A stretch of DNA of 49,894 bases, from positions 1 to 49,894 of IMG/VR virus record IMGVR_UViG_3300008107_000080. One strand, 5' to 3'. This document shows, one piece after another, positions 261 to 49,618 of the stretch; position 1 is the first letter of the stretch; every line of letters starts with the position of its first letter. The position numbers and the translations under genes were made by a program. The stretch comes from a virus. Under the pieces are notes generated by a model that worked only from the letters and a program-made list of their open reading frames with translations, was not told the origin of the DNA and made no database searches.

Positions 261-699
261 TGGAAAAGCTCTCGGACTCGGAGCAAGGGAGCTCTCTTCC
301 TGGGAGGGAGAGGGAGAGACTTCTAGGAAGAGCTCTCGGACTTCCTGGGAGAGCTCGGAGAGGGAAGAGCAAGAGAGGACTTCCTAGAAGAGCTCCGAGC
401 AAGGGAGAGGACTTCGGGAGGGAAGAGGACTCGAAGAGCTCCAAGGAAGGGAGGGAGAGAGCTTAGAAGAGCTCGGAGGGAAGAAAGCTCCGAAGGGAGG
501 GAAGAGGGAAGAGGACTCCCAGGAAGAGGGAAGAGGGAGCTTCTAGGAGACAAGCTCGGAGAGCAAGAGAAAGCAAGGGAGAAAGCAAGCTCTCTTGCTG
601 CGGGAGAGTTTCGAGCAGCAAGAGCAGCAAGGAAGGGAGGGAAACAAAAAGAGCTCCCGATAAAGGGAGCTCCAAGAGAGACAAGGGAAGAGAGGAAGT
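261..699. other. Purine-rich low-complexity stretch, no gene seen
   Basis: The + strand is almost entirely GA-rich and is punctuated by GAGCTC palindromes and GGGAG, GCAAG and CTTCC words. Open frames exist on both strands only because the composition avoids stop codons. They translate to Ser/Leu/Pro- or Glu/Arg/Lys-rich low-complexity strings with no Shine-Dalgarno in place. I see no credible gene. TTCCTGGGAG motifs occur at about 298 and 344, with one opposite copy near 519. Confidence 0.6.
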
Positions 700-1056
700 T
701 TACAAGGGAGAGCGATTCAAGAAAGCAATCTCGAAAGCATAGCCATTAAGCAAGCAAGATTCGGGAGCGTCCCAATTAGAAGAAATTGTTTCACAAGCTT
801 GACTAAGCAAAAGCTTTTCTTGGGAGGGGTTGCTTTCGTATTCCTTGCAAGCAAGCATGAAAGCTTCTAGGGCTTTCTCTTGTATGTAGTTTCTCCAGTT
901 ATTCGGAAGAACTAGGAGAGCTTCGGGAGCTTCGGAGAGCTTGCTTTCGATTGCTTGGAGCTCCTGGGAGTGAAGAGCTTCCGAAGCTTCGGGAGCTTCA
1001 TTCAATTCAAGAAATCGAGCTTGTAGATAAAGCTTGTAAAGTTTCTGGGAGAGCAT
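700..1056 (-). CDS. Hypothetical protein of the left cassette (118 aa)
   Basis: The predicted protein is 118 residues, starting MLSQKLYKLYLQARFLEL. The start at 1056 is preceded by AAGGA seven bases upstream, which is better supported than the longer frame that begins inside the neighbouring gene. The sequence is helical and Ala/Glu/Leu-rich with an EAPEASEAL-type repeat near residues 20-50. It ends with a Cys-containing tail and has no family I recognise. It is the last gene of a three-gene cluster (1519-1343, 1315-1067, 1056-700) with spacings of 27 and 10 bases, so co-transcription is likely. Its codons come from the same restricted word set as the surrounding non-coding DNA. Confidence 0.6.
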   Translation of the reverse strand: MLSQKLYKLYLQARFLELNEAPEASEALHSQELQAIESKLSEAPEALLVLPNNWRNYIQEKALEAFMLACKEYESNPSQEKLLLSQACETISSNWDAPESCLLNGYAFEIAFLNRSPL

Positions 1057-1066
1057 GAAAGTTTCC

Positions 1067-1315
1067 TTATTGAAAGAGATAAACAAGAAAAGCATAATCG
1101 CAGCAAGCTTTTGCAAGCAAGCTTTCGAGCAAGAGAACTCCCGTCAAGAGTTCTAATCGGGAGAAAAGAGGGAGAGCTCTTAGGGCTTGTATCCTCTCTT
1201 CCCCTTGCTTTCGGAAGAGCTCCGAAACTATATCAAGCTCGGAGAGGGACAAGCTTTTGAGCTCTTTTCCGAGCTCTTCTACTGAGAGGGAATTGTAGTA
1301 TTCTAGAGACTTCAT
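1067..1315 (-). CDS. Hypothetical protein of the left cassette (82 aa)
   Basis: This 82-residue protein starts MKSLEYYNSLSVEELGKELK and is predicted to be helical and charged, with a hydrophobic C-terminal third rich in Leu, Ala and Cys. The start codon is preceded by CCCAGGAATCCCAATT, so the SD AGGAA is part of the window-wide CCCAGGAA motif. The family is not recognised. It sits between two other small genes in the same direction and probably shares a transcript with them. Confidence 0.55.
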   Translation of the reverse strand: MKSLEYYNSLSVEELGKELKSLSLSELDIVSELFRKQGEERIQALRALPLFSRLELLTGVLLLESLLAKACCDYAFLVYLFQ

Positions 1316-1342
1316 AATTGGGATTCCTGGGAAGGGAGGGAG

Positions 1343-1519
1343 TTAATTTATTCCGAGCTCTTCTAGTTGTAAGTCCAAAGCTTCGAGTTCTTTTTCTAGT
1401 TTAGCAAGCTCTCTTCGGACTCTCGAACTTTCTTTTTCCGATAGATAGAGTTCAAGAGTTTCAATCTTTCTTGCTATTCTTGTTGCTTTTGCTTCAAGCT
1501 CGATTGCTTGCTTGTTCAT
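1343..1519 (-). CDS. Small coiled-coil protein (58 aa)
   Basis: A 58-residue frame starts at the ATG at 1517-1519 and stops at 1343-1345. The translation begins MNKQAIELEAKATRIARKIE and is a continuous charged amphipathic helix with Glu/Lys/Leu heptads, so a coiled coil is likely over nearly the whole length. The SD is AGGAA eight bases upstream, again inside a CCCAGGAA motif. It is the first gene of the small cluster that runs to 700. Function is unknown; such short coiled coils often act as oligomerisation or adaptor proteins. Confidence 0.6.
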   Translation of the reverse strand: MNKQAIELEAKATRIARKIETLELYLSEKESSRVRRELAKLEKELEALDLQLEELGIN

Positions 1520-2095
1520 CTTTCGTATTCCTGGGAAGGGAGTTCTTTTCCTGGGAGGAAGTCTCCCAGGGCTTGTATTTGTATCGGAAGGGAGCTCGGA
1601 AGAAAAGAGGGGAAGAGCTCGGAAGGGAAAGAAAGTTCGAGAAAGTTTCGGGAGCTTGGGAAGCTTCTAGGGAGCTCCGAGACAAGCTCCGAGACTCGGA
1701 AGGGAGAAAGAGAGGGAGACCAGCTCCGAAGCTCCGAGCAAGCTTCCTGGGAGACTTAGGAAGGGAAGGGAGGGAAGCTCCGAGAAAGAGAGGGAGCAAT
1801 CGAGCAAGGGAAAGATTGAAGCTCCGGGAGCTCTCTTGCTGCAAGAGGAAAACTTGCTGCAAGGAAGAGAGCAAGGGAAGGAAGTTCCGAGCAAGAGCAA
1901 GCGAAGGGAACTCGGAAGAGGGGAGGGAGGGAGGGAGAGCAAGAGAGCTCGGACAAGAGGGAGAGCTTGCAGCAAGAAAAGCTCTTGCAGCAAGAGCAAG
2001 AGGGAGGGAGCTTGCAAAAGACTACAAAAGAAAAAGCTCCCTTCCTGGGAGGGAAGAGAGCTCGGAGAGTTTCGAGAGTTTAGCTAGCTAGAAGC
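1520..2095. other. Purine-rich intergenic stretch of the left cassette
   Basis: The + strand is GA-rich and contains many GAGCTC, GGGAGC and GCAAGAGC words, with TTCCTGGGA motifs near 1548, 1747 and 2042. A long open frame on the + strand (1471-2091) translates to Arg/Glu/Lys-rich low-complexity sequence and looks like a by-product of composition. No SD-supported gene was found. Confidence 0.55.
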
Positions 2096-3469: not shown

Positions 3470-3626
3470 AATGTTTTCCCCTATTGGAAAAAGTTTAAGA
3501 GCTTTCTTCTATGCAAGAAAGCGAGCTCCGAAAAAGCTTGCTTCACTGTGAAACAAGCAAGAGGAAGGGGAGAGAGTTACGCTCTCCGAGCTCGAAAGCT
3601 CCCGCTTGGACTTCCTGGGAGGGAGA

Positions 3627-4064
3627 CTACCATATCTCCCTTGGGTCGATTGTGGACTCGGAAGAGCTTTCTTCTGGGAAGTCCTCTTCAAGAGGAACAA
3701 AAAGCTTGCTCTCTTTCGAGTCCTCTTGCTGCTCGGAGGAAGTCTCAACTTGTTCCCAGTTGTAAGCTTCGGACTCTTGGACAAGCTCGAAAGCTTGCTC
3801 TTGCTCTTGTTGCTTAAAGGAAGCAAGAATACTTGCTAGAGTATGCTGAGCTGAGACAAGTTCCCCTCCCGAAACTGCAAGGGAGTCCGAATACTCTCGA
3901 AGCTCTTTCTTTTTCTTCCGAGCTTTTCGAGCTTGCTTCCGAGCTTCCTTCCGAGCTTGTTCAAGCTCGATTGCTTGAAGCTTATTTGTAAGCTTTTGAA
4001 CTTGTATCTCTTTCTTGAGATAAAGTCTCTCGAAGTGCCTTTCGTCAAAAGTTCTTTCTTTCAT
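3627..4064 (-). CDS. Short SAQHT-motif protein (145 aa)
   Basis: This 145-residue protein has three parts. There is a charged N-terminus (MKERTFDERHFERLYLKKE), a Lys/Arg/Ala-rich coiled coil around residues 25-55 and then GGELVSAQHTLASIL near 68-82, followed by an acidic Gln/Glu/Ser-rich C-terminus. The GGELVSAQHTL segment matches the GEIASAQHTI segment of the larger protein at 2096-3469, so the two are probably related or partners. No strong SD precedes the ATG. It is probably the first gene of the left-cassette transcript. Function unknown. Confidence 0.55.
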   Translation of the reverse strand: MKERTFDERHFERLYLKKEIQVQKLTNKLQAIELEQARKEARKQARKARKKKKELREYSDSLAVSGGELVSAQHTLASILASFKQQEQEQAFELVQESEAYNWEQVETSSEQQEDSKESKLFVPLEEDFPEESSSESTIDPREIW

Positions 4065-4549: not shown

Positions 4550-4905
4550 TCCGAGTGTACTAGCACACCCGTACACCCGATACCCCTCTACAGGGGGGGG
4601 GTGAGTGTACTAGCTGACCCATACACCCGCACTCACACACAACAGCCCACCCCACACCCAGGTACACGTGTAAGACGACTTTGGGGTTTTTTTATTTGGA
4701 AAATTTCCCGTACGAGGCCGGCCACTGGGTTTTTTTGTGGGTTTTTTTTGTCTGGGTTTTTTGTCTGGTGGTTGCACGTAGAAAGATTTTCCAGGGTTTT
4801 TTTGTTGGCCGACTGGCCTGGTTTTCCTGGGGTGGGTAGATGGTGGGAGGTTCCCACGTAGTAAGAATTTTCTGGGTTTTTTATTGACTGCATGACGGAG
4901 ACTAT
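4550..4905. repeat. G/T-rich non-coding repeat region
   Basis: No gene seen. GAGTGTACTAGC occurs twice about 50 bp apart (near 4553 and 4602), each time followed by acccn-tacacccg. GGGTTTTTT-type elements occur at about 4682, 4728, 4740, 4754, 4794 and 4873. Two of them sit in a longer imperfect repeat, CACGTAGAAAGATTTTCC (near 4774) and CACGTAGTAAGAATTTTC (near 4854), each followed by the GGG-T run. A TTCCTGGGGTGGG motif lies at 4816. The base composition differs from both the cassette on the left and the phage genes on the right. Confidence 0.6.
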
Positions 4906-16747: not shown

Positions 16748-17102
16748 AGTTTGTCCTTTCGTTTACAACGAGTACAATCTTACGACCTTCCCCGTCATTG
16801 TAAAAGTAACTACCTTTGTTGTCTAGGACAACCTCGAACAATCTCCTGGAGGATGGGTGTTCTACTTGAAGTCCACGTACTAGAGGTAGTTCGAACTTGG
16901 TAAAGGTTTCTCGGTCGATCATGATGTGGTATCTGGGTGCTTGGATCTTGACTTTATCAGAGTCAAAGAGTTGCTTGCACTCAGTGATTGCACCCTTTAT
17001 TGGGTACTTGGCTAGATTAGGCATACCAATTAACAAGTCTACTTCAACAAACGAAGCAGATTGTTTATACAGGAAATCCAGCCCCCAGGAAAGAATGTTC
17101 AT
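16737..17102 (-). CDS. Head completion protein (121 aa)
   Basis: Starts MNILSWGLDFLYKQSASFVE at 17102; the longer in-frame extension is not preferred because it would reach into the spacer after the decoration gene. The body is beta-rich (VKIQAPRYHIMIDRETF, then ERTNCAS at the end). Gene order between decoration and tail-completion genes suggests an adaptor or stopper. No recognised family. Confidence 0.5.
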   Translation of the reverse strand: MNILSWGLDFLYKQSASFVEVDLLIGMPNLAKYPIKGAITECKQLFDSDKVKIQAPRYHIMIDRETFTKFELPLVRGLQVEHPSSRRLFEVVLDNKGSYFYNDGEGRKIVLVVNERTNCAS

Positions 17103-29243: not shown

Positions 29244-29853
29244 GATCGTCTGGGTGGATGTAGGTGTCGGGTTGGTCTTTGCTGTCTACTGCTTGCCACA
29301 AGGCAAATGTAAGACGAGCCATTGCATTGACTAAATGAGGTTCGTCTCGGTTGCCACGATTCCATTCGTTGATATGGTTCATGGCATGATTGAGATTATC
29401 TCGTTGTGGAATTTTCTTCCAGTTTGTATCACCATACTTTCTAGCACCAAATCCTAGACATTGAGCAAGCAGACGAAGAACAACTGGAGGAATACAATCG
29501 AATCTAGCGTCGAAATGGGATTGTCTACCACCTTGCTCATTGACGACAGTTTGGTTGTTACGACCTTCGAATGGATTGGGTTCAGGTATCCACTTATTTT
29601 CGATATCATCAAAGTGACCTTGTTCTGGATCAGGTTTGGTTTCCTGGGGTGGAGAAGGAGATGAAAGAGTTATAAACTTTTCGTTTGCTTTGGTGTTGTT
29701 AACACCTTGTTTATTTTCTTCGATAGCTTCAAGTTTGTACCACCAATTGCAGGACTTGTATTCACGTTCTGTAACTTGCCATCGTGAGAAATTGTAAAGA
29801 ACTTGGTCTCGAATGTTGAACTTGGGTGGTGGAATGGGTTGTTTTGTTGGCAT
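29221..29853 (-). CDS. DUF5664 / MazZ-like dNTP pyrophosphohydrolase
   Basis: A 210-residue protein. Residues ~107-190 carry GGRQSHFDARFDCIPPVVLR, then GFGARKYGDTNWKK and HAMNHINEWNRG with a final HLVNAMARLTFALW helix. This is the DUF5664 pattern (dATP/dGTP diphosphohydrolase-like, MazG-related helical fold). The N-terminal ~50 residues form a small SH3-like domain (DQVLYNFSRWQVTEREYK). In some phages this family (MazZ) cleans the dNTP pool, with PurZ making 2-aminoadenine; no purZ is in this window, so that link is not claimed. Shares its terminus with the terminase gene. Confidence 0.75.
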   Translation of the reverse strand: MPTKQPIPPPKFNIRDQVLYNFSRWQVTEREYKSCNWWYKLEAIEENKQGVNNTKANEKFITLSSPSPPQETKPDPEQGHFDDIENKWIPEPNPFEGRNNQTVVNEQGGRQSHFDARFDCIPPVVLRLLAQCLGFGARKYGDTNWKKIPQRDNLNHAMNHINEWNRGNRDEPHLVNAMARLTFALWQAVDSKDQPDTYIHPDDHDTKTTT

Positions 29854-32155: not shown

Positions 32156-34185
32156 TGGAAACCTAGATGTTCGAGACCTTCGGTTAGGTTCGGGTGTAGT
32201 GTAACTCGAAGAACTTTACGACCCATGCCAGAAGCTGAGTCATGCTTGTGAGCAAAGACTAGCCGGAGAGCAACAAGGTCTTGGAGTTCTCTGTTTACAC
32301 GTTCAATTGACATTTCGAGTTTGTCGACCAGTTCGTCACGGCTGTGCGGTTGCTTCATAATGAGTTTGCAAATACGCATACGTGGTGATTTGAAGTCGAT
32401 GATGTCTCGAACAACTTTGGCAACCAGTTGGTCTACCAAAGCATTGGGTCGATCAAGACCTAGAACAACTGGAGCACACATGTAGAGTTTGGTAAGCTGA
32501 CCGATCAAACGAGCTGGTACTTCGATGATGGGTTCAGATGCAATCTCGCGTTGTCCGAATGTTTCTCGGTCAACTTTGGTACGGAGTGTTGCTGCAAGTT
32601 TTGCCCACGTCTTGATGTTTTGTTGTTCTCTGAGACCTAGTTGTACGTTGCAAGGCTTGTCCATGAGCATATCAAGGAAACCCTTTGCAGCTGCAACCAC
32701 CGGCATTTCTGGGGGAAGAGTTGAAGGGTTATTGGCTACCATCATGGATCGTTCTAGCATACGATCTTCGATTAGTTCTCTGTCTCGGTCAGACAAGTCG
32801 AGTTCGAAGTCTAGGAATCGTTCACCCAAGAATGATTGGTCAGATCGACGAAGCACGTGAGTACCACAGAGAATCATGGTACTGCGAATGTTTCGGTAGT
32901 CGTGTGAAATCATGTTCTTGTAGAACGTAGAACTGTCTTTGTCGTAGAAGTCTCGAAGTTCTGAGAAAATCTTTTCGACGTTTGGTTGTTTGAGTAGAGC
33001 ATCGGCATCTTTGACGATCAGTGTCTTACCTGCAATGAGGGGAATCAATGATGCGTCAGCGTTACCTTTTTCGTCTTTCCAACCAGAAAACAAACCAGTA
33101 AACGTAGACTTGAGTACGACTTGCTGTGAACCACCAACTACTTTGGCAATGGTGGTTTTACCAGACGAAGGAGCACCAAAAAAACGTACCCACAACTGCT
33201 CGCCTTCTACCCTGGTGGAGTAGATGGAAGATAGAACTAGAAGTAGTCCTAGCTTCATAGGTTCGGTTGTGTGGAACACGTTTTCGTATCGTTTGACTAA
33301 TTCGTCATAAGTCGTACAGGTACGGTCTGCTTCGACAGTCTCAATGGTACTCTTGACCACCACCACGTTTTCTGGGGAGGTATAAGGTTTGATCCATTCT
33401 TTGATCTTACCGAATGATCCACGACCGTAGTCTCGATAAGTGTCGTTGAGGTCGTAGCCTTCGGGTTTATCTTCGGGCCAGTCGATGTAGGAAATGGATT
33501 TTGGTTTGTACTGAGAAGCAGAGATATGTTTGAGAATTACTTGCTCAAATCCTGCTTTACCAGAAGTGTCGTTGTCGTAGCAGAACACAACGTGTTTTTC
33601 TGATAGGTACTCACACCAACCACCCTTCCATACACCAGCCCCAGGAACTGCTGTAGGAGAGATACCGTTAGATGCTATAATTGCTTTTGCAGCTAGACGA
33701 TCCCAATGACCTTCGGCAATCCAAACGGTATCTTCTGTTGTTTCTTCCCAATTCATGAGCGTGTGCTCAATTCCTGGGGAGGCCATGATGATCCATTTAT
33801 CAAACCATTCACCAGTCTTTTTGTCTTGTTTACGTACAAGAGCGACTTTGTAAAGGTTGTTGAGTTTACCGTTCTTAAAAGTTGGAATCAAGTACGTACC
33901 GTTAAGTTCGTTATACTTGACTCCAGCATCTTGTACACAAGAAATAGGTAGTTCACGAAGGTTGGCAATGAAGTGGGACGTACGAGTTACGTTGTCAAAT
34001 AAACCGTAGAGTTCACGAAGAAACGTAATTGGATTGCCACTTTTCATGCAAACTTTGCAGTCCCACAAACCATTTTCTTGGTTGTAGAAGAAGTGTTTTT
34101 CTTTCTCACAAAACGGACAGTTTGTTACGAACTGGTTTCCATGTTGTTCTGGTTTGAAACCAGTATGAAATTCGAACAGGTGCAC
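32152..34185 (-). CDS. Primase-helicase (Zn finger, TOPRIM, ATPase, wHTH)
   Basis: A 677-residue replication protein. Zn finger with Cys23/26/43/46; TOPRIM primase (EGHWDRLAA at ~158, CYDNDTSGK at ~202 with D-x-D); ATPase with FGAPSSGKTT (337-346) and VKDADALL Walker B; C-terminal winged helix (MKQPHSRDELVDKLEMSIER). It primes and unwinds DNA at the phage fork, next to the polymerase. The start is GTG at 34185, with AGGAGA supplied by a CCAGGAGA version of the strand-biased motif. The ATPase has a SF3/AAA+-like rather than DnaB-like character. Confidence 0.88.
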   Translation of the reverse strand: MHLFEFHTGFKPEQHGNQFVTNCPFCEKEKHFFYNQENGLWDCKVCMKSGNPITFLRELYGLFDNVTRTSHFIANLRELPISCVQDAGVKYNELNGTYLIPTFKNGKLNNLYKVALVRKQDKKTGEWFDKWIIMASPGIEHTLMNWEETTEDTVWIAEGHWDRLAAKAIIASNGISPTAVPGAGVWKGGWCEYLSEKHVVFCYDNDTSGKAGFEQVILKHISASQYKPKSISYIDWPEDKPEGYDLNDTYRDYGRGSFGKIKEWIKPYTSPENVVVVKSTIETVEADRTCTTYDELVKRYENVFHTTEPMKLGLLLVLSSIYSTRVEGEQLWVRFFGAPSSGKTTIAKVVGGSQQVVLKSTFTGLFSGWKDEKGNADASLIPLIAGKTLIVKDADALLKQPNVEKIFSELRDFYDKDSSTFYKNMISHDYRNIRSTMILCGTHVLRRSDQSFLGERFLDFELDLSDRDRELIEDRMLERSMMVANNPSTLPPEMPVVAAAKGFLDMLMDKPCNVQLGLREQQNIKTWAKLAATLRTKVDRETFGQREIASEPIIEVPARLIGQLTKLYMCAPVVLGLDRPNALVDQLVAKVVRDIIDFKSPRMRICKLIMKQPHSRDELVDKLEMSIERVNRELQDLVALRLVFAHKHDSASGMGRKVLRVTLHPNLTEGLEHLGFQ

Positions 34186-38641: not shown

Positions 38642-39421
38642 CTACGCAGAAGCTTTTGTAATCTCCTTTCGATAAGCTTCTGGAAAATGTTTGGACAGAT
38701 TCTTCCAGGCATCCTGGGGAGAACGGCCCATAGGGATAACAGGAGGCATATTCCATCGGTTCTTGGCTTGGTGGGCTGTAGACAGAGTGGTGTAGATAAC
38801 TCGGTTATCTTCTTCTCTGGCTTTACCTTCCATTGCAATACCTTTAGCGGCTTCGGTGACACGGGTAATGTCGACTTGCAGATTGAGGAAGAAAATAAAT
38901 CCTGCCCAAGCTGTAAGAGTCGATCTCATGCCTAGCCCCTTTTCACCGTCATCAAGGTTGATAACGTGACACAGGAAGTCTGGCCCCATTGTGTTGGGTA
39001 ACGAGATTGTACCAACGTGTCCGATCAAGATGACGTTGACACCTTCGTTAGCTTTGTTGTTGCACAAGTCTAGGAATTGTTGCAACACTACCGGCGACTC
39101 TTTCCTGGAGCCACTACTGTAAGCATGAAAGTCTTTCGTGCTGTTTTGGTAGTGGGCTTGAAGGACGAAGTCAAAGATTTTGTTTTGCAACCCCTTGGTA
39201 GAGTCAATAAGGATTGTACCCTTAGTGACTTTGGTAACAGCTTGAACAAGTTGTTGGAATGAAGTAATGACGTAGTTCAGACTGTTGTCTGGAACTTGTC
39301 CCATTACTTCTAAGTCCTGGTAGCCGGTTTCACCGATTGACATACAGTGAATTGGGCCAGGGAACTGTAGGCCGAGGCTGGTTTTACCCATACCTTCACG
39401 ACCATAAATAACACCAGTCAT
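38642..39421 (-). CDS. Sak4/RecA-like recombination ATPase
   Basis: 259 residues from ATG at 39421: MTGVIYGREGMGKTSLGLQF gives a Walker A (GREGMGKTS, 7-15) close to the N-terminus, as in Sak4/AAA_24 phage ATPases; Walker B is GTILIDS. VILIGHVGTISL is a RecA-core-type strand. The family promotes single-strand annealing with an SSB partner. A GCGAGG element precedes the ATG. The longer reading frame upstream is not used because it crosses the 39.43-39.47 kb spacer. It precedes the SSB-like gene. Confidence 0.75.
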   Translation of the reverse strand: MTGVIYGREGMGKTSLGLQFPGPIHCMSIGETGYQDLEVMGQVPDNSLNYVITSFQQLVQAVTKVTKGTILIDSTKGLQNKIFDFVLQAHYQNSTKDFHAYSSGSRKESPVVLQQFLDLCNNKANEGVNVILIGHVGTISLPNTMGPDFLCHVINLDDGEKGLGMRSTLTAWAGFIFFLNLQVDITRVTEAAKGIAMEGKAREEDNRVIYTTLSTAHQAKNRWNMPPVIPMGRSPQDAWKNLSKHFPEAYRKEITKASA

Positions 39422-39470
39422 ACCTCGCAAAATAAATCTCCAAAAGAGGAACGAAACGGAAACGGAACAG

Positions 39471-40193
39471 TTAGTTTTGGTCTGCCTTGGCTTCGGCAGC
39501 TTCTGGGGTGAACTTGCCTTGTGGGTATCGTTTCTCAAGCTTTGCTCGGTTGAGTGTACGATAGTACGACAAGGTGTGACCACAGGGTAGTGAATTGTTT
39601 GAGTCGATCTCGTAGTCAAGATGGTAGACTCGGTAGCCGTTGATGATAAGTGACATATCAATCAGGACTTGAGTCAATGAACCTTCGTGACCGTAGAAGA
39701 TCAACTTCTTGGTTTTGTTGAGCATGAACTCGATTTTCTTGGCAATTGAGTTCGCCCAGAGAGCCATTTCGTTAACAACACCGTTGAACTCAAACACAGA
39801 CATATCATCGAGTTTGTTTTCATACGAATTGTCCCAAGTAACAAGGTTCGGCTTGTGGGAACTGTTGATAAGCAGAGTTTGAAGTTGTGCTTGATAGTAG
39901 CACAGGTCACCAAGTTCTTGTCTTGCTTCCTGGATGATAGCTTGGCCTTTGTCTGGTGTTTCAAAGCCACCATACTCAAGAGCAAGCAGGTGTTCATTGA
40001 GTTCGTACACTTCACCGATAAAACCGTTGATACAATGGACAACATCAAGACGGTGAGCGAGTTGCTCAAATCGTTTACCAAATTCACCATAGTGGTTACA
40101 GTCTGATGGTGGTGTGTTTGGATCGAGTTCTACTCTTGCTGCTCGTGCAAAAGTCTTGTCACAAAACTCGTGGTAGGGGCTGAGGTACTTCAT
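39471..40193 (-). CDS. MazG-like nucleotide pyrophosphohydrolase
   Basis: A 240-residue protein with MazG-type motifs: CINGFIGEVYELNEHLL (residues ~54-70, E-x-x-E-x-x-E-like) and ARQELGDLCYYQAQLQ (~90-105, E-L-G-D). The C-terminal half is helix-rich and ends with a basic segment plus Ala/Glu tail. MazG-like proteins hydrolyse dNTPs or alarmones to monophosphates. It starts 1 base before the next gene ends. A second NTP-pool enzyme is encoded at 29221. Confidence 0.75.
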   Translation of the reverse strand: MKYLSPYHEFCDKTFARAARVELDPNTPPSDCNHYGEFGKRFEQLAHRLDVVHCINGFIGEVYELNEHLLALEYGGFETPDKGQAIIQEARQELGDLCYYQAQLQTLLINSSHKPNLVTWDNSYENKLDDMSVFEFNGVVNEMALWANSIAKKIEFMLNKTKKLIFYGHEGSLTQVLIDMSLIINGYRVYHLDYEIDSNNSLPCGHTLSYYRTLNRAKLEKRYPQGKFTPEAAEAKADQN

Positions 40194-40194
40194 G

Positions 40195-40737
40195 TTAGTA
40201 TTGACTTTCTTTTGAAATGGTTTCGTAAAAGGAGTAACAAAGTTTCAATGAAAATTCATTGTTTGCAACAACAGGGGTAGTTGGTGCAAGAAAGTAGATG
40301 TACTGGTAGGCTTGTCGTCTAACAGATTCAGCAAGTAACCAACACAGTTTGATACAGTTCGCATCGTCGTGTGTTAGAGCTGCTTGTCGAATCAAACGCA
40401 TTTGATGTACAACCCATAGCGAGTGTGTCCAGTTTGACACAGATGCCTCACGCATTTCTGACGGTCGATACGTGTACTGATTGTTGAAGATCACAGCATC
40501 GAAGTTAGATAACCATTCTGTTTTGGCATGGTTTTTTAGATAGTTATCTTCAAAACCATAATGAGTTGTATTTAAGGAATCTGTTTGATCGTGTTCAGAT
40601 TTAATTGCTGCACACAATTTACCAATTTTGACAATCAAAGACGAAAATGGTGCGTTTTGGTTCAAATGGTATTCAAGTTTTTTGTGTAATTCTGTTTGCA
40701 CAACAGTGTATGCAACTAGAATTTTATTAAGGTTCAT
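40195..40737 (-). CDS. Hypothetical protein (180 aa)
   Basis: A 180-residue, mostly helical protein, MNLNKILVAYTVVQTELHKK onwards. Aromatic and His-rich helices (SVSNWTHSLWVVHQMRLI, RRQAYQYIYFLA) suggest a helical bundle. Its ATG overlaps the RecB-like gene stop by four bases (ATGA), implying coupled translation with the nuclease. No family recognised. Confidence 0.55.
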   Translation of the reverse strand: MNLNKILVAYTVVQTELHKKLEYHLNQNAPFSSLIVKIGKLCAAIKSEHDQTDSLNTTHYGFEDNYLKNHAKTEWLSNFDAVIFNNQYTYRPSEMREASVSNWTHSLWVVHQMRLIRQAALTHDDANCIKLCWLLAESVRRQAYQYIYFLAPTTPVVANNEFSLKLCYSFYETISKESQY

Positions 40738-41798
40738 TCTTCACCTTCTAGTTCTTTGAATAGAGACGGAACGGGAACGAGACTGTCGAGGTCGATCTGA
40801 CCTGTCAGGTAGTTGTAAAAATCTTTCTTGTATGAGTCTGTTCGAGCAGGGTCGAACAAACGTAGTGGTCGTTTGTGGAACAAGTGATTGTAGCAGTCAG
40901 GGTTGAGTGGATCAAACGAGTCTGACAACGTATACTCGTACATGTAACACAAACTGTCGATAATCGGATCAAGTACCTCCTTTCGATATCGGGTCACTTT
41001 TTCCTGGGGGTGGTAAAAGATATGCTGGTCTACCCAGAATATCTTGTTACGAGCAACAGGGTACTCTTTGTAAGGAGTGCAGTTGTTGTACAGACGTTCG
41101 ATGTAGAACTTGTGTCGTTCACCAGCTTGTCTAGCAGGACAGTTCCATTGGACTTCTGGTATACGAAGGATGTCGTACACAACGTGGGTGCAAGGTTTTC
41201 CCGCCAACTCCATAGCATGAAGATACAGATTGAGTTGCAAGTCTGTATGGATTTCTTGCCTGTGTTGTAGTTTATCGTGACGACCTTTGCACTTGTGTTC
41301 TACAAGGATGTACTGTTCTGAGTTAGACAGACCCATTGGGTAGTCAGACGTAGTGTTACCGTTACGAGCACCAGCACCATCTATCTTGCCCATGAGGGAG
41401 ATAGGAAAGTTCTTGGTACGGTAAGGTAGTTTGAATTGTTGTTCAGTTAGGATTGTGTAGAGAGACTTGTATCGGTCATCGTATAACTTCATCATTTCCT
41501 GGACGGAGTAGATGGTGGTCATATCGATTGACAGATACTTGCTTTCTTCCTCTTTGAGAACTTGCTGGACTGTTGCTTTTTGTTCGTCAGACAGATCACG
41601 GTATAGTTCCGGCCACTGTAGAGTTACTTCAAGCAGTTTGTGAAACATGTTACCCCAAATCAAGTTTTGGTTGAGTTGGGATGGTTCTTCAAGTCCAAGT
41701 CCATAGTAAAGGACAAAACTGAACGGGTCTTGTAGGTACTTCGACAGAAGGGATTGTGTTATTCCTCCGTCGATTGGGCCTCGCCATTTCCATTGCAT
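40734..41798 (-). CDS. RecB/Cas4-like PD-(D/E)XK exonuclease
   Basis: A 354-residue nuclease of the PD-(D/E)XK superfamily. GNMFHKLLE (His53 and Glu57), GKID (Asp140), ILVEHKCK (Glu167-x-Lys169) and QLNLY (Gln188...Tyr192) match the RecB-nuclease/Cas4 order. No Cys-rich Fe-S cluster is obvious. It likely processes DNA ends for recombination together with the Sak4-like ATPase. The SD is AGGAAAC, inside a CACCCCAGGAA copy of the dispersed motif. Overlaps the FlbD-like gene by 40 bases. Confidence 0.85.
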   Translation of the reverse strand: MQWKWRGPIDGGITQSLLSKYLQDPFSFVLYYGLGLEEPSQLNQNLIWGNMFHKLLEVTLQWPELYRDLSDEQKATVQQVLKEEESKYLSIDMTTIYSVQEMMKLYDDRYKSLYTILTEQQFKLPYRTKNFPISLMGKIDGAGARNGNTTSDYPMGLSNSEQYILVEHKCKGRHDKLQHRQEIHTDLQLNLYLHAMELAGKPCTHVVYDILRIPEVQWNCPARQAGERHKFYIERLYNNCTPYKEYPVARNKIFWVDQHIFYHPQEKVTRYRKEVLDPIIDSLCYMYEYTLSDSFDPLNPDCYNHLFHKRPLRLFDPARTDSYKKDFYNYLTGQIDLDSLVPVPSLFKELEGEE

Positions 41799-42307: not shown

Positions 42308-43026
42308 TGTGAGAGTTTTCCTGGGGTGACGGAACGGATATAAGATTCGAGTTTGTGTGCTTCTCGTCTGCACTCAAGAAGTTTGTATTCTTCTTCGAGG
42401 AACTTGAACATGGGTACTCGAAACAGGGTATGTGTAGTGTATCGTTGAGATACTACTTGGTTTCGTCTAACGCTGGTTCCAACATAAACTACACCTTGAG
42501 GTTTGAATGAATCGAGAAGTTCGACAATATGATCGGAGCATAGTTGAACTTCTTTGGCAGAGGGTGGTCTGCCTTGGTTGATAACGTCGGCATACGTTCC
42601 TGGGGTGGAGAGGAAGTTGTTAGCTTCGTCTTGTTCAGTTGACAAGTATTCTGTACCGTCAGGTTTGTATAGTCGAACGATGTCTTTGGTTTCACAGCAG
42701 ACTGTGTGTGTCATGCAGTAGGAAATGCTGTGACGGAGTTCTGAGATTATAAATTCCAGAACTCGTCCGGCACGTCCCGTAAAAGGTATCCCTGTGTTGG
42801 AGTCTGTTCGGTCGGGGGAGTCTCCGATGAACATGATTCTGGTTCGGGGAGTTCGTCCGTAGTCGTGGTGTCCGTCCCTTCGAACGGCCACGATTCTGCG
42901 TCCGGTGGCAAGTAGGCATCTGTTACATCTGCTCCAGTCGGCATGGCCTGTATGACTATCGTAGATGAGATTTGTGCCTGGTATCTTATACCGGACAGGA
43001 TTTTGTTTAGCACTTCCAGACTGCAT
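42304..43026 (-). CDS. Uracil-DNA glycosylase, family 4/5 (Fe-S)
   Basis: A 240-residue protein with CNRCLLATGRRIV (Cys pair, ~34-46), RIMFIGDSPDRTD (~63-75, GE-x-P-G-equivalent catalytic loop), GIPFTGRAGRVL (~78-89), YCMTHTVCC (Cys of the cluster, ~103-111) and a VVYVGTSVRR strand. These give the fold and 4Fe-4S ligands of family 4/5 UDGs. In phages it removes uracil or protects against misincorporation; MazG-like and DUF5664 enzymes occur in the same genome. SD GGAG is 7 bases upstream of ATG. Its first 280 bases overlap the HTH gene out of frame. Confidence 0.85.
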   Translation of the reverse strand: MQSGSAKQNPVRYKIPGTNLIYDSHTGHADWSRCNRCLLATGRRIVAVRRDGHHDYGRTPRTRIMFIGDSPDRTDSNTGIPFTGRAGRVLEFIISELRHSISYCMTHTVCCETKDIVRLYKPDGTEYLSTEQDEANNFLSTPGTYADVINQGRPPSAKEVQLCSDHIVELLDSFKPQGVVYVGTSVRRNQVVSQRYTTHTLFRVPMFKFLEEEYKLLECRREAHKLESYIRSVTPGKLSQ

Positions 43027-43271
43027 TTTCTGTCTCCGTTGAGGATAGCATGAAAGTTGGGAGGTTTGAAACCGATCTTCTCACAATACTGACGGAAGTT
43101 GCCAGGTGCGTGTCGATCAATCAAATCTTTTATTAAGTAACCTTCTCGCTGCTTCAGCAAGATTGTTGGGTTGAAATTCGGGTCGTTTGGCCTCGGAATA
43201 ATCAAACTTTCCGATTCCGGGGTTACGTCCTTTAAGGACGGATTTGATGGTGTTGATGGTTCGTCGCTCAT
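42747..43271 (-). CDS. Helix-turn-helix protein overprinted on its neighbours
   Basis: A 174-residue frame. Residues 46-100 read like an XRE/Cro-type HTH: YLIKDLIDRHAPGNFRQYCE, KIGFKPPNFHAILNGDRKC and SLEVLNKILSGIRYQ. The N-terminus (155 bases) lies inside the endonuclease gene and the C-terminal ~93 residues (280 bases) lie inside the UDG gene, in a different frame, leaving only ~90 unshared bases. The C-terminal tail is acidic, Thr/Pro-rich. It is the only DNA-binding regulator candidate here for the eight palindromic operators. Overlap makes misannotation possible. Confidence 0.55.
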   Translation of the reverse strand: MSDEPSTPSNPSLKDVTPESESLIIPRPNDPNFNPTILLKQREGYLIKDLIDRHAPGNFRQYCEKIGFKPPNFHAILNGDRKCSLEVLNKILSGIRYQAQISSTIVIQAMPTGADVTDAYLPPDAESWPFEGTDTTTTDELPEPESCSSETPPTEQTPTQGYLLRDVPDEFWNL

Positions 43272-43569
43272 CTTCTTTTAGATCCGCTGACATGAAGTAA
43301 AGGATGATCCAGCCAGCCAAGACTAGATCGTTGTGTTTGTGGTAGTCTCGTTGCATACCTTTGTAACTCGTGTGTCCTGTACCGTAACCTTGCAGTTCGA
43401 TTGCTATTTTTTCCTGGGGGAAGCAAAAGTCTAGTTCCCACTTGCAGGATAGGTGAACTGTGTGGTGGTGGACAATCGGGTAGGTGCTGTGAGATTTCCA
43501 TATTTGGTGAAAGTTTTCTTCGAAGTTACTGTCGTAAATCCGTTGTTTCGGACGGTAAGCTTTTTTCAT
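43117..43569 (-). CDS. PD-(D/E)XK-like endonuclease (150 aa)
   Basis: From ATG 43569: MKKAYRPKQRIYDSNFEENF, with the core CKWELDFCFPQEKIAIELQG (Glu-Leu-Asp ... Glu-Leu-Gln), then GTGHTSYKGMQRDYHKHNDL and GWIILYF. This order is the VSR/DUF559-like endonuclease pattern: ...LD..., ...I-E-x-Q-G..., H/K at the next helix. It may cut at mismatches or Holliday-type structures. It starts in the 3' end of the 43526 gene (44-base overlap). The active metal ligands are assigned by pattern only. Confidence 0.7.
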   Translation of the reverse strand: MKKAYRPKQRIYDSNFEENFHQIWKSHSTYPIVHHHTVHLSCKWELDFCFPQEKIAIELQGYGTGHTSYKGMQRDYHKHNDLVLAGWIILYFMSADLKEDERRTINTIKSVLKGRNPGIGKFDYSEAKRPEFQPNNLAEAARRLLNKRFD

Positions 43570-43849
43570 GTTCAAGTTGCTCTGGGGCAAACTGTACACC
43601 GAGTAGCAGTAACGATTTGCGAGCAGCCATAAGGTGTTGGAGACACTCTTGAAAAGTATCGGACATTAGAACGTAGTTGTCTGTTCTGATGTTGGGGCCG
43701 TACTTTTCTGGGGAGTCTGGGAATCCTTGCCTTCCGGTTACTACGTTAACGTGCTTGCTGTCGAATCCGATTGCAGTAAGCTGTGCAGCTAACTTGATGC
43801 AGAGTTCGATGTCGGTGAATAGCTTGTGTTCTGGAAATTGTTGTTGCAT
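43526..43849 (-). CDS. Hypothetical protein (107 aa)
   Basis: 107 residues from ATG 43849 (MQQQFPEHKLFTDIELCIKL), SD GTAGGATC. A helix-strand layout with FDSKHVNVVTGRQGFPDSPE in the middle. Possibly a small nucleotide- or DNA-binding fold, but no family is recognised. It lies between the small 78-aa gene and the endonuclease gene in an early polycistron. Confidence 0.5.
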   Translation of the reverse strand: MQQQFPEHKLFTDIELCIKLAAQLTAIGFDSKHVNVVTGRQGFPDSPEKYGPNIRTDNYVLMSDTFQECLQHLMAARKSLLLLGVQFAPEQLEHEKSLPSETTDLRQ

Positions 43850-44137: not shown

Positions 44138-45292
44138 TTAGTCAAGGTTTCCTGTGTCTATCGGGCCAACTGGTTTGTCGGATTCTTCTTTGGTGAAGTA
44201 GTGGATTCCGACTGGACAACGAGGTACACCGGATTCGGTAAGACCTTCAAATTCGACTTTGAGCCACTTACCGATGTAACTTTCTCGGTAGGTGAGGATT
44301 TGTTGACGTTTGGCACGAGTTGCTTTGAATGAACATTTGAACTCTTTGCCGTGAGAAGTAGCACATACGAACACACCTTCACGATTTGTTCCTGGGATGA
44401 CATCAACAATTTCGAACTCTGAGTCTACAAAGGCTTTCATCTTGAGTAGACCAGCAGATCGTTTGTTGATTTCGTAAGGTGCGTTGGCATTACGAATCAT
44501 CATACCTTCGAATCCAGCAGACTTGTATTCGTCAAACTGGTCTTGTAGTTCTTCGTCAGTAGGACAAATTTCGTAAAGAACAGTGTGAACCATCTTGAAT
44601 GGACACTTACGGGAAAAGTATCGAACTTTTTGGAACGGATGGTTTACATCGGTACGAGCTTTGATGTAAAAATCTTCCATAATCTCGACGATACGTTGAG
44701 CTTCATAGATTCGTGCCGAAAAAGGTGCATCGGTGTCAATTACATCGAATACGTGGTACTCGATTTCTTGACAAGCAACAAGATCAGGTGTGTTACGCAT
44801 TACATACGAGTAAATCGTTTGTAATGGTGTGTTGGGAATGATAAGTTCACCGTCAAGTTTGACACCTTCGGGTATCTTTGAGAGGTACAACTCTAGGTGA
44901 GGACAGCTAGTGAATAGCTGATTCTTCCTGGAGAGGAGTCCGTCTCTGGACATGATACATCGGATACCGTCTAGTTTGGGTTGGAGTGCTGTATGGTTGA
45001 ATCTTGGGTTACGCTTGTACTCTTGTGCAAGCATAGGTAAGGATGGTTGACTGGTTGGAATGTCACGAGAGTAACCTTTTCGGTTAATCTGGTAGTCAAC
45101 TCGGCTTTGGTACTCAGACAAAGTGCTGTCAGGTAAGGCTTGTGAGCCACCCTGATTTTTCTGGGTGATGTTGTTGTTTAGACATCGTCCCCAAGATAGC
45201 AGCAGTTGTTGTGATTCTTCATCATACTCGGCTGTCCACCAAGTGATGTCGTTGAAGTTGTTGAGACAGTAGAGGGTAGTTGAGTGTTTCAT
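44138..45292 (-). CDS. ATP-dependent DNA ligase with N-terminal WGR-like domain
   Basis: A 384-residue protein from ATG 45292. Residues ~1-45 resemble a WGR domain (ITWWTAEYDEESQQLLLSWG). The catalytic part has motif I KLDGIR (Lys106 forms the AMP adduct), motif III-type YHVFDVID, motif IV EGMMIRN and motif V LLKMK, then an OB domain (FEIVDVIPGTNREGVFV). Seals nicks in replication and recombination. Leader contains CTCTCACAATACT directly before ATG. The N-terminal WGR-like unit may bind DNA ends. Confidence 0.92.
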   Translation of the reverse strand: MKHSTTLYCLNNFNDITWWTAEYDEESQQLLLSWGRCLNNNITQKNQGGSQALPDSTLSEYQSRVDYQINRKGYSRDIPTSQPSLPMLAQEYKRNPRFNHTALQPKLDGIRCIMSRDGLLSRKNQLFTSCPHLELYLSKIPEGVKLDGELIIPNTPLQTIYSYVMRNTPDLVACQEIEYHVFDVIDTDAPFSARIYEAQRIVEIMEDFYIKARTDVNHPFQKVRYFSRKCPFKMVHTVLYEICPTDEELQDQFDEYKSAGFEGMMIRNANAPYEINKRSAGLLKMKAFVDSEFEIVDVIPGTNREGVFVCATSHGKEFKCSFKATRAKRQQILTYRESYIGKWLKVEFEGLTESGVPRCPVGIHYFTKEESDKPVGPIDTGNLD

Positions 45293-45335
45293 AGTATTGT
45301 GAGAGAGTATAAGAGTGAGAGAGTGGGGAGAAAAG

Positions 45336-45746
45336 TTACAGCACGTGTCGAATACTGCTCTTTTTGATGCAGGATTCGGGTGAAGCTTGTAGGTTATCGA
45401 CAATGATGTTGCCGGTTGTTCCGTCTGTGTTTTGAAAAGTAATGTGAAAGTTGGGACTTCTAAAAAGCATAGGATCTCTTATGAACATATGTACTAGCAA
45501 AGTGATAAGCATAGCTGACATTGACGTACGGGTTTGGATGATGTCTCGCCTTTCTTCTCCTGGGTAGGTATCATTTTTCATGATTGTGTCTATAAACATG
45601 GGTGTTGTACACCATGCTTGTATGAGTGGTTGTAGTGGATGTTCACGGTACATCTGAACAAACACAACACCTAGTTCTTCAACAAGAGTTTGTACGTATT
45701 CTTGTTGTTGTTCAAGAGGGAGAGAAGCAAAGCGTTCTTCGGACAT
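45336..45746 (-). CDS. Hypothetical early protein (136 aa)
   Basis: 136 residues from ATG 45746 (MSEERFASLPLEQQQEYVQT), mostly helical with a hydrophobic middle (SMSAMLITLLVHMFIRDPML, ~ residues 75-95). GGAG plus AACTCTCACT precede the start. No family is recognised; position between helicase and ligase suggests an early replication accessory protein. Confidence 0.55.
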   Translation of the reverse strand: MSEERFASLPLEQQQEYVQTLVEELGVVFVQMYREHPLQPLIQAWCTTPMFIDTIMKNDTYPGEERRDIIQTRTSMSAMLITLLVHMFIRDPMLFRSPNFHITFQNTDGTTGNIIVDNLQASPESCIKKSSIRHVL

Positions 45747-45791: not shown

Positions 45792-47324
45792 TTAGTCGTT
45801 GAAAAGGTAGTACATGTCGGACTTGGTACGGGTGTGAGCAACAAAATCTACGTTCTTTTCTTGCTCAATTTGGTCTGGTGTTTCTGCACGGGAGGAAGGA
45901 ATTGGTGGGTTGAGGAGTCCAACAACACGGGCTTCCAGACCTTTGGCTTTGTGAACTGTTGATAAAACAACGTGTTGGGTGCCTTTTGGGGGCTGTAACA
46001 GTCGTTTTAGCATTGGTTCAAAGTCGTCAATGGTAGTACAAGACTTGAGAACGTGTTTGATACAGTCAAACTTGTCTTTGTTGGCTTGTTTTGCCATTGC
46101 ATTTCCCACTTCAAGAGTTCTTTGCTCGTACTGTGCTAGTTTGAGCAAAAGATCCTCCATTGAAGTAGCTTTTCGGTTGACAACGGTACTGATAAGGCTT
46201 TTGACTACAGTAGCACCGAGAGATTTGCATGGAATACCTTCTCGGACGTACTGTAGAGCAAGTTTTACCAGTGGTGCATTGTATCGACACACAATCATTG
46301 GGTTTTTGTCCTTTGAATCAGCATGGTTACTGAGTGATTCTAGGGTATTTCGAGTCCAAGTCATGAGTTCGTCAGGGGTAACACGGGCAATAATACCGTC
46401 TTTCTTGTTGTCTATAGTACGAATTTGTGCTGTTGGACGGATTTTATTGGCCTGTGCAGCTACGTTTGGAGGGAGTCGAAAGGACAGTCGAAGGGGTAAT
46501 TCGGCTGCACAATACTCTCGGATACGTTCTATAGAGTGTGGATCAGCACCGTTCCAGCCGTTAATTGCCTGGTTATTGTCACCTACAAACACCAAATTCT
46601 TGGCAAGTTTGAGGCTTAAAGCCAGTCTAGCTGGGGATAAGTCCTGACATTCGTCAACAAAACCGATTTCGTGGGGTGGAGTCTTGAGTAGGAACAAAGC
46701 TAACCACACTTGCATCATGTAAGTGATGCCGATACGTCGATCGACTGTTTTCATTGCCCGAATAATTTCGGAACACTGAGAAAGCATGTCTGGGTGGATC
46801 TTGTATGGTGCAAGTTCACTGTATTTGGCTTGCAGGGCATACAAGTTTTCCTGGGTGAGATCGAGTAGTTCTTCTTGGAACTTCTCTACAAACCGTAAGG
46901 AGCTAATCCAGTCAAATCGACGTTTGTTTTGGCTCATGGTTTGGCCGGTAAGTTTCTCGACAATAGCTTCACCGGCTCGTTCGTTTACTGGAACAAACCC
47001 GTAGGCTTTTTGAATGACAGAATAACCCCAACCGTGGTGAGTTTTGACGTCGGTATCTTTGTGGATACGAGGTTTCAGGTCGTCAACGGTTGTGTTGTTA
47101 AAAGCCATGTAGATAGCTTTGTAACAATCTAGGCCAGCTACGGCCACGTCTGGTTTCCTGGGGAAGTTGTCTCTACACCATTGGTAGATTGCAGCTTGTT
47201 CAGGAGTATTCTGGAATCTGGTGAGCCACATGACAGGATTAGCTGCCTTGTAGTACAGGTAGGCATCGACGATGGTACTGGTTTTACCACAGCCCGGCCC
47301 TGCGTTAATTAGTAGGTTTGGCAT
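45792..47324 (-). CDS. SF1 (UvrD/PcrA-type) DNA helicase
   Basis: From ATG 47324, 510 residues. Motif I AGPGCGKTST (8-17), motif II DECQD (224-228), motif III GDNNQAINGWNGAD (248-261), then RLSFRLPPNVA (motif IV-like) and motif VI-type VDFVAHTRTKS near the end. STVHKAKGLEA (motif V) is also present. It unwinds DNA with 3'-5' polarity in this family. The start is chosen at the Met just before motif I; the longer frame uses TTG in the neighbouring gene. It overlaps the 86-aa gene by 20 bases. Confidence 0.93.
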   Translation of the reverse strand: MPNLLINAGPGCGKTSTIVDAYLYYKAANPVMWLTRFQNTPEQAAIYQWCRDNFPRKPDVAVAGLDCYKAIYMAFNNTTVDDLKPRIHKDTDVKTHHGWGYSVIQKAYGFVPVNERAGEAIVEKLTGQTMSQNKRRFDWISSLRFVEKFQEELLDLTQENLYALQAKYSELAPYKIHPDMLSQCSEIIRAMKTVDRRIGITYMMQVWLALFLLKTPPHEIGFVDECQDLSPARLALSLKLAKNLVFVGDNNQAINGWNGADPHSIERIREYCAAELPLRLSFRLPPNVAAQANKIRPTAQIRTIDNKKDGIIARVTPDELMTWTRNTLESLSNHADSKDKNPMIVCRYNAPLVKLALQYVREGIPCKSLGATVVKSLISTVVNRKATSMEDLLLKLAQYEQRTLEVGNAMAKQANKDKFDCIKHVLKSCTTIDDFEPMLKRLLQPPKGTQHVVLSTVHKAKGLEARVVGLLNPPIPSSRAETPDQIEQEKNVDFVAHTRTKSDMYYLFND

Positions 47325-47565
47325 TTGTGTTTTGTGAGAGTTGAAAAATGAAGTTGTGAGTGAGTCGTTTACTACTACGTTGAGCAGTAAACTTTTGAGT
47401 TGCAAAATCGATTTCTACTAGGTCAAACTTGATTCCTTTACGGTAAGGGTACATACTTCGGGTGAGAGTTACGTTGTGAAATCGTAGACGACCTGTAGTT
47501 GGGTCGGCGAGTTCTACACGTTCGTAGGTAAAGATTGAGTTAGGAGGGTTAGGTTGGGTTGTCAT
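47305..47565 (-). CDS. Hypothetical 86-aa protein
   Basis: 86 residues, MTTQPNPPNSIFTYERVELA onwards. Beta-rich (GRLRFHNVTLTRSMYPYRKG), with a basic C-terminus ending SQNTNAKPTN. Its ATG overlaps the coiled-coil gene TGA (47562-47565). Possibly a small nucleic-acid-binding or inhibitor protein; unrecognised. Confidence 0.5.
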   Translation of the reverse strand: MTTQPNPPNSIFTYERVELADPTTGRLRFHNVTLTRSMYPYRKGIKFDLVEIDFATQKFTAQRSSKRLTHNFIFQLSQNTNAKPTN

Positions 47566-48724: not shown

Positions 48725-49009
48725 TTAGACGATTGTGCATTCGGTGAGTAGGTTGTGAAGTTCGGTGTACTTGTACTCGTACTCGAACATGACCCAGAAA
48801 GGTTTGTATTGTTCGAGCATAGTCAAAGCATGTTCACGGGCAGCATGTCTTAAAAGAATACTATGGGACGAATCAGACAGATCACTGTAGAGTCTAAGAA
48901 TAGATTCTTTTTGTCGGTACAGAATTTGATCGACTTCTGTGGTATCAACAACGTATGCTTTACCATCACCGTGAGGATAACGAATATAAGCAGCAGGAAC
49001 AACTAACAT
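48725..49009 (-). CDS. Hypothetical early protein (94 aa) behind an operator
   Basis: 94 residues, MLVVPAAYIRYPHGDGKAYV onwards, helical C-terminal half (HAAREHALTMLEQYKPFW). Its ATG (49009) directly abuts the operator at 49010-49028, and the AGGA of the operator doubles as the SD. Binding of a repressor would therefore also block ribosome-site transcription or be positioned to control just this gene onwards. Function unknown. Confidence 0.55.
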   Translation of the reverse strand: MLVVPAAYIRYPHGDGKAYVVDTTEVDQILYRQKESILRLYSDLSDSSHSILLRHAAREHALTMLEQYKPFWVMFEYEYKYTELHNLLTECTIV

Positions 49010-49028
49010 GGTATCATCCTATGATATT
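49010..49028. promoter_or_regulatory. Operator copy 6, overlapping an RBS
   Basis: GGTATCATCCTATGATATT: palindrome ATATCA-N5-TGATAC reading on the - strand. It lies directly upstream of the ATG at 49009 and includes the SD AGGA. The reverse complement is nearly the site at 5494-5512. No sigma70 boxes seen within 60 bp upstream. Confidence 0.65.
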
Positions 49029-49073
49029 AAACTGACGATTTGAAAAACATGGTACACGAACGAGATGCGTAAA

Positions 49074-49092
49074 AGTATCACTTTGTGATACC
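49074..49092. promoter_or_regulatory. Operator copy 7
   Basis: AGTATCACTTTGTGATACC, with perfect GTATCA-N5-TGATAC arms. It overlaps the stop codon of the 64-aa gene (49078-49080) and lies 64 bp from copy 6. GATGCGTAAA abuts it, the same string that forms the -10 neighbourhood of the 49.77 kb promoter. Confidence 0.7.
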
Positions 49093-49272
49093 AGCTTGTG
49101 CTAACATCTCTGCTATGGTGGGTTTGGGTTGCACTACTTTCCTGGGGGTGGGTACTTGGAGAGCTTTTGGTGTTGCTGTCTTAGTACCGTAGTCTTTGGG
49201 TCTAGCACCTGACCGATTGTGATGTATGTCGATTAGGTACTTGCCACGAGGTTTACGAATGATACGAACCAT
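49078..49272 (-). CDS. Hypothetical basic early protein (64 aa)
   Basis: 64 residues from ATG 49272 (MVRIIRKPRGKYLIDIHHNR), AAGGA SD nine bases upstream. Strongly basic with His, Arg and Lys in the first half, then Thr/Pro/Lys-rich linker and a short acidic end. Basic small proteins in early operons often bind nucleic acids. Family unknown. The stop codon lies inside an operator (49074-49092). Confidence 0.55.
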   Translation of the reverse strand: MVRIIRKPRGKYLIDIHHNRSGARPKDYGTKTATPKALQVPTPRKVVQPKPTIAEMLAQAGITK

Positions 49273-49309
49273 AACGAGATTCCTTAAATAAGGGACGAAA
49301 CAAAACGGG

Positions 49310-49618
49310 TCAGACGAATTTGACTTCAATATTGTGGGGACGAAGTAGGTCATTGAGTGGGCCGAGCAGTTCTTTCCTGGGGTGTGTGGAAAGTAGTTTG
49401 AGAATGTCGAGGGTTAGTTTGCTGTCAAGAAAAGACCTACGACATTCGACTGTGAATGGTGGAATATGTTGCTTGAGTTGTGAAGGAAACTTGGTTTTAT
49501 CAGGAATCGATATACCCTTGGATAACAAAAGACAGCCAAGAACATCGTAATGTCCGTCTTTTTGCATATAGTGGGCAGGGTGGGCAAGTAGAATTGAGGG
49601 AATTTCGATTGTTTGCAT
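49310..49618 (-). CDS. Hypothetical first early protein (102 aa)
   Basis: 102 residues from ATG 49618 (MQTIEIPSILLAHPAHYMQK). The longer frame starting in the AAAACAG tract is rejected as low-complexity Phe/Leu/Ser. Helical C-terminus with LTLDILKLLSTHPRKELLGP. No SD is seen before the ATG. It is the first gene after the 49.77 kb promoter. Function unknown. Confidence 0.5.
   Translation of the reverse strand: MQTIEIPSILLAHPAHYMQKDGHYDVLGCLLLSKGISIPDKTKFPSQLKQHIPPFTVECRRSFLDSKLTLDILKLLSTHPRKELLGPLNDLLRPHNIEVKFV

Follow-up and report, generated by a model that had tools for sequence, protein, structure and literature searches.

A strand-biased, evenly spaced DNA motif in a family of uncultured phages, probably the recognition site of a strand-specific DNA-processing enzyme

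Nicks in phage genomes were recognised about 50 years ago, but no function has been established for them, and the genes for the nickases are ill defined (PMC11780129). The published nick motifs lie on one strand, run across coding sequence, occur family-wide in diverged phages and drift between relatives, and in phiKMV-like phages they sit on the non-coding strand (PMC3517423, PMC11780129). Other oriented sites with which a new motif may be compared are E. coli Chi (GCTGGTGG), 75% of which lies on one strand (PMC5959072), and the stoperators of cluster A mycobacteriophages, which sit in promoters and short intergenic gaps (PMC9283540). Here we describe TTYCTGGGR, a motif dispersed through a 49.9-kb uncultured phage record (IMG/VR IMGVR_UViG_3300008107_000080; the 49,894 nucleotides (nt) analysed are called the window below). 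It is a real and strong oriented motif of a phage family, and we found no earlier description of it in the literature searched.

All confidently called genes of the window, among them those for tape measure, capsid/protease, portal, GpA-type terminase, primase, PolA, Sak4, ligase and UvrD helicase, lie on the - strand, so that a motif on the + strand is on the non-coding (template) strand. The full form of the motif is TTCCTGGGG[A/T]G, which reads C[A/T]CCCCAGGAA on the sense strand. Counting distinct sites with the degenerate form TTCCTGGG/TYCTGGGR, we obtained 78 on the + strand and 11 on the - strand. An earlier note on this DNA had arrived by hand at about 80 + strand copies, with which our count agrees, and at fewer than ten in reverse; the strong bias that it described stands, while the reverse sites are slightly more numerous than it stated. 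The 8-mer TTCCTGGG occurs 41 times on the + strand and 6 times on the - strand of the window (1.6 expected), and the exact 12-mer TTCCTGGGGWGG occurs six times, always on the + strand, with no occurrence in 100 shuffles. In the core genome the spacing between sites has a mean of 685 bp and a median of 518 bp. Overall, 378 of 426 sites (~89%) are fully within genes. Their distribution over the codon frames is uneven (251/90/37 in seven genomes, the commonest frame coding for Pro-Gly or Pro-Glu), and the note's observations of sites in all three frames and of a copy in non-coding DNA, the exact 12-mer at 4824, both hold. The 20 nt that follow the sites 3' on the motif strand are enriched in G and depleted in C.

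The motif is not a by-product of the encoded proteins. We compared observed counts with those obtained by synonymous-codon shuffling, which leaves codon usage and all proteins unaltered, and also ran codon-order shuffles; both rule out a coding artefact. In the window, CCCCAGGA was found 7, 13 and 5 times in the three frames, as compared to 0.3, 0.5 and 0.0 times after synonymous shuffling, in line with the earlier proposal that protein sequence does not explain the copies. When ten close genomes were pooled, CCCCAGGA occurred 199 times in sense orientation (~10 expected) and 22 times in antisense (3.8 expected), and CCCAGGAA 219 times (17 expected) and 32 times (4.3 expected), respectively; these genomes are kin, and the pooled counts are thus not independent. 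Enrichment above the synonymous null was found in all frames in the ten close genomes and also in five more distant ones, and was weakest in G216. Motif words head the list of enriched 8-mers, the strongest in the window genome being CCCCAGGA with a z of 24. By the same test, the best 8-mers reach z values of 5.7-12 in lambda, T7, Pan1, RcOceanus and DaVinci, and of 5.5-7.5 in tf, phiKMV, PHB09 and Vibrio 1.205.O.

Part of the raw strand ratio is explained by codon composition, which in the clade of the window gives the sense word more opportunities to arise. The null is roughly symmetric in G213-G217, yet the ratios observed there are 30:3, 31:4, 22:1, 12:2 and 21:2; for G214 the 31:4 observed compares with 1.9:1.7 expected. 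Antisense copies, too, are mildly in excess (53 observed, 22 under the synonymous null). Counts far above a codon-preserving null and unequal orientations were the outcome of the check that the earlier note had set beforehand.

Conservation provides evidence of a different kind. Searching with the terminase, we identified nine phages that are close kin (64-85% identity) and five at a greater distance (35-55%). In all 14 of these uncultured phages the motif has the orientation seen in the window, against control counts of 0-1, and the signal is weakest in the most distant, G216; the oriented enrichment in related phages that the note had suggested looking for is thus present. Even where synonymous divergence is strong, between roughly one third and one half of the sites have kept their exact place. 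At positions with identical amino acids, the motif 8-mer is preserved in 86-95% of cases (26/28, 18/21, 18/19 and 11/12), as compared to 21-27% for other 8-mers and 30-41% for other Pro-Gly/Pro-Glu windows. The difference between motif and other 8-mers indicates purifying selection on the DNA itself. At three positions (10122, 11100 and 33640) the word is found in reverse complement in a homologue. Drift between lineages is seen in the preferred form: CACCCCAG is frequent in the clade of the window but does not occur on the sense strand of G008, while G216 favours CCCCCAGA. The sites are also more evenly spaced than chance, with a coefficient of variation of 0.59-0.79 as compared to ~0.97 for random placement, and in the window gaps of less than 100 bp are depleted (1 observed, 8.8 expected); in three contigs with few sites (G214, G216 and G217) the spacing effect alone is not significant.

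With about one copy per 700 letters, nearly always on the same strand and independent of the encoded proteins, the motif is most probably the recognition site of a sequence- and strand-specific DNA-processing enzyme. A protein-DNA function is most likely, and the selection at sequence level, the conservation of single sites, the orientation and the mild enrichment of the opposite orientation argue for DNA rather than RNA as the level of action, in agreement with the oriented DNA-level signal first proposed. In three pair-pattern scans of 2.9 million viral contigs, this family (L177, L254) alone yielded dense oriented copies. A recogniser encoded by the phage is favoured by this result, and we consider it most probable. 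One further contig, L290, has a mild dispersed excess of the motif that is not comparable. Where unrelated viral contigs had several copies, these were mostly due to local protein repeats, and such contigs were set aside.

Among specific mechanisms, site-directed single-strand interruption appears the best supported, and we propose it tentatively, at somewhat less than an even chance. The published nick motifs largely agree with ours, and the closest parallel is with the interruptions of tf/LUZ24-like phages (TACT/RTGMC, WACTRTGAC), where a short, asymmetric, one-strand-biased motif inside coding sequence is likewise kept across strongly diverged relatives with drift between lineages. The same blind scan recovers both: in tf, the experimentally mapped nick motif TACTGTGA ranked first, with a strand ratio of 10:0, although the scan did not recover the nick motif of phiKMV, which has only three sites. 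In DaVinci, used as the positive control for stoperators, it recovered stoperator-like words. The phiKMV-like (CGACxxxxxCCTA/CTCCGG) and T5 (R/GCGCRGG) nick motifs are also confined mainly to one strand, which in phiKMV-like phages is the non-coding one, and phiKMV, like the window phage, encodes a ligase. These phages differ from ours in having few major sites, a different sequence and nick enzymes without shown kinship; the tf motif too is unrelated in sequence, and its nicks have been demonstrated, while the present family is known from sequence alone. We infer that, if the motif behaves as the one-strand nick sites of T5, phiKMV-like and tf-like phages do, a nickase acting late in infection would nick the non-coding strand at TTYCTGGGR, either at every site or at a subset, for whatever purpose the nicks may serve, and that the nicks would be resealed in the next cell by the phage ATP-dependent ligase or that of the host.

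The nickase may be a conserved Vsr/I-Bth0305I-like nuclease of 160 amino acids (aa), a candidate by association. Its structural model matches the catalytic domain of I-Bth0305I (E 5e-4, TM 0.79 by target) and, more weakly, the Vsr mismatch nickase, it is part of the family core, and homologues occur both in the close kin of the window phage and in G216, its most distant relative. We advance this role with caution because two unrelated phages that have homologues of the nuclease carry no comparable motif.

That last result weighs against the nick-site proposal, as do several others. One of these homologues adjoins the replication genes of a temperate phage. Nicks are not visible in assembled sequence. 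The window has 66-78 sites, whereas tf-like phages have 9-14, unevenly spaced; nick models do not predict even spacing, and the tf group is without it. Absence of the motif from the other strand is complete in tf, not strict in T5 and not found here, where the reverse orientation is mildly enriched, the reverse word standing ~2-7 fold over the synonymous null. With 11 reverse sites and this enrichment, we say that the motif works like the nick sites of T5, phiKMV and tf, and not that it is a proven member of that class. The viral-contig scans, moreover, sought two spaced copies, so that each catches a small share of carriers and hit at most one family member.

Sequence-only tests do not separate the nick-site proposal from the one that we rank next, a Chi-like polarity signal, which we regard as doubtful though a serious contender. 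This was one of the readings offered in the earlier note; the motif shares several properties with Chi, but the nick sites of T5, phiKMV and tf phages match it no less well. Here a host enzyme of RecBCD/AddAB type, or a phage helicase-nuclease, would enter at the early-gene end, read TTCCTGGGG on the 3'-ended strand and switch from degradation to recombination, the many evenly spaced sites protecting an incoming or unpackaged end. Chi and its RecBCD/AddAB analogues are similarly G-rich, asymmetric, oriented and over-represented, with minority reverse copies; the extended G-rich 3' flank, the evenly spread coverage and the mild enrichment of the reverse orientation all fit. At 4-fold sites the motif strand is the G-rich one (coding-strand 4-fold GC skew -0.40), which parallels the preference of Chi for the leading strand. 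The phage has genes for a helicase of UvrD type, a PDDEXK exonuclease and a Sak4 recombinase, and the shared contig ends described below suggest a defined linear genome. The present motif is, however, longer than Chi, several times denser (0.7 kb compared with 4.5 kb) and, as far as tested, limited to one phage family without a link to a host. Its individual sites are conserved, while Chi needs coverage instead. Nor is a motif-bearing host genome known: in 392 Planctomycetota genomes CWCCCCAGGAA reached at most ~6 copies per Mb, and although whole-genome counts seemed raised relative to a reversed-pattern control, 200 kb of one genome with a high ratio gave only ~1-2x over the synonymous null, which led us to reject a host Chi in this phylum. 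The viral-contig scans gave no unrelated phage with comparably dense copies. A related and more speculative idea, to which we give a lower probability, is that the family has its own genome-wide, evenly spaced oriented code, read only by a phage enzyme (for example a helicase-nuclease with its own Chi). Such a code would label self DNA and its direction, to serve packaging, recombination-dependent replication or defence against host nucleases, and motif and reader would co-evolve across the family. Unlikely, too, is a primase, packaging or other DNA-organising site: the even spacing of ~0.7 kb and the phage-encoded primase speak for it, but the primase sites known to us are shorter than the motif, and we know of no packaging motor that needs dozens of oriented sites.

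The two remaining explanations tie the motif to transcription or its product. In a stoperator-like system a phage protein would bind the asymmetric sites and block transcription elongation or silence the genome, as in cluster A mycobacteriophages. As there, the sites are asymmetric, dispersed and oriented against transcription, and the stoperator-like sites of DaVinci have the same antisense orientation in both arms; this correlation follows trivially here, however, because all genes face one way. We think such a system improbable, as ~89% of sites are inside genes, the sites are more numerous than stoperators, and no repressor-type helix-turn-helix protein or integrase was found among the proteins scanned, which are part of the open reading frames (ORFs). 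Least probable of all is a signal on the mRNA (CCCCAGGAA), whether Shine-Dalgarno sequence, pause site or site for an RNA-binding protein, a role that the earlier note had thought possible. Since all genes run one way, sense orientation is inseparable from genome orientation, and two core sites (41807 and 34193) lie 15-17 nt before start codons. These two are the only ones of 66 core sites to precede a called start, where a Shine-Dalgarno spacing of about 5-10 nt is expected, and the majority of sites fall within genes. In predicted pairing probability and folding energy the surroundings of the sites do not differ from transplanted controls, which also dismisses an RNA hairpin, and the antisense orientation is enriched as well. 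A G-quadruplex was rejected despite the G-rich 3' flank, a two-tetrad pattern being present at 19% of sites and a three-tetrad pattern at 0.3%.

Table 1. Motif sites and candidate enzyme genes in the window
Feature	Position	Strand	Remarks
Dispersed motif TTYCTGGG(G/A), full form TTCCTGGGG(A/T)G, followed by G-rich/C-poor 3' flank	297..49381	+	78 distinct sites, 66 outside the terminal 4.6 kb
Exact 12-mer TTCCTGGGGTGG, non-coding DNA past the tail genes	4824..4835	+	Exact match
Exact 12-mer site	22122..22133	+	Exact match
Exact 12-mer site	22653..22664	+	Exact match
Exact 12-mer site	29641..29652	+	Exact match
Exact 12-mer site within primase gene	33771..33782	+	Kept in most relatives; 131 bp from inverted site 33640
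Exact 12-mer site within 240-aa gene 42304-43026 (probably UDG-family)	42597..42608	+	Exact match
Site within helicase gene	47155..47163	+	Identical in 7/7 alignable relatives
Reverse-orientation site (1 of 11)	33640..33647	-	Kept in most relatives; forward word in G001
Reverse-orientation site	17084..17091	-	Kept in 6/7 alignable relatives
Sak4-like recombinase	38642..39661	-	Protein scan
PDDEXK_1 / phrog_1218 exonuclease; possible partner in Chi-like model	40734..41798	-	Protein scan
160-aa DUF559/phrog_503 protein, Vsr/I-Bth0305I-like PD-(D/E)XK fold	43117..43599	-	Candidate nickase
ATP-dependent DNA ligase; could seal nicks	44138..45403	-	Conserved in G213, G215, G216
UvrD-family helicase; possible partner in Chi-like model	45792..47405	-	Protein scan

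Within the primase gene, an inverted motif pair at 33640-33782, its members exactly 131 bp apart, is kept in several relatives and could mark a replication or processing site. Accessory ORFs on the - strand encode a subtilase, a dATP/dGTP diphosphohydrolase, a UDG-family glycosylase and a fatty acid hydroxylase. A short tandem GGACT/CTGGA array is located in non-coding DNA at 5281-5325.

The terminal segment of the window (1-4550) has a strange vocabulary (AGCTC, GGGAG, GAGCAAG) and is flanked by inverted arrays of AAGTTCGCTAAAC-like units (~105-250 and ~4380-4545). The 457-aa gene in this segment and its counterpart in G004 share 88% identity, as compared to ~65% for the rest of the genome, and the end module may therefore have been exchanged recently. 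The 457-aa protein (2096-3469), which is kept at the same genome end in several relatives, contains 'GQHR' among other motifs and matches SspE very weakly (E 0.47), a hint, not significant, of a ParB/Srx-like domain; it had no Pfam match and no significant structural match in the PDB, and we rejected it as a known DNA-binding fold. Contig ends coincide among independent contigs (window positions 1 and 49894, G003, G004, G006, G008 and G215): most of those that share ends terminate near TAGGTTCTTGGT, several start near TTTTTATTTGATCCCA, and direct terminal repeats are absent. Such coincidence probably reflects physical ends that are fixed, as a cos-type GpA terminase would allow.

As for the host, all five cellular matches to the terminase are Planctomycetota metagenome-assembled genomes, and a homologue at ~30% identity is present in 52 of 392 Planctomycetota genomes, which suggests a common, little-known prophage type in this phylum. 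The assignment of the phage itself to a Planctomycetota host is weak because Planctomycetota is the only phylum sampled in this way. Likely restriction sites are strongly avoided in the coding sequence of five family genomes relative to the synonymous null, namely GAAGAC (8 observed, 98 expected), GGTACC (5, 71), CTGCAG (2, 62), CCATGG (3, 48) and AGTACT (6, 54), and this avoidance could help to identify the host.

The synonymous-shuffle scan is a simple means of finding such sites in uncultured viruses, having recovered the tf nick motif at rank one and stoperator-like words without prior knowledge. Should the motif of the present family be a Chi-like signal, it would be an oriented signal kept by a phage family rather than by a known host. 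If it is a nick site, the up to ~80 conserved, evenly spaced one-strand sites, together with a candidate endonuclease, would make these phages an unusually dense and testable case of genome nicking.

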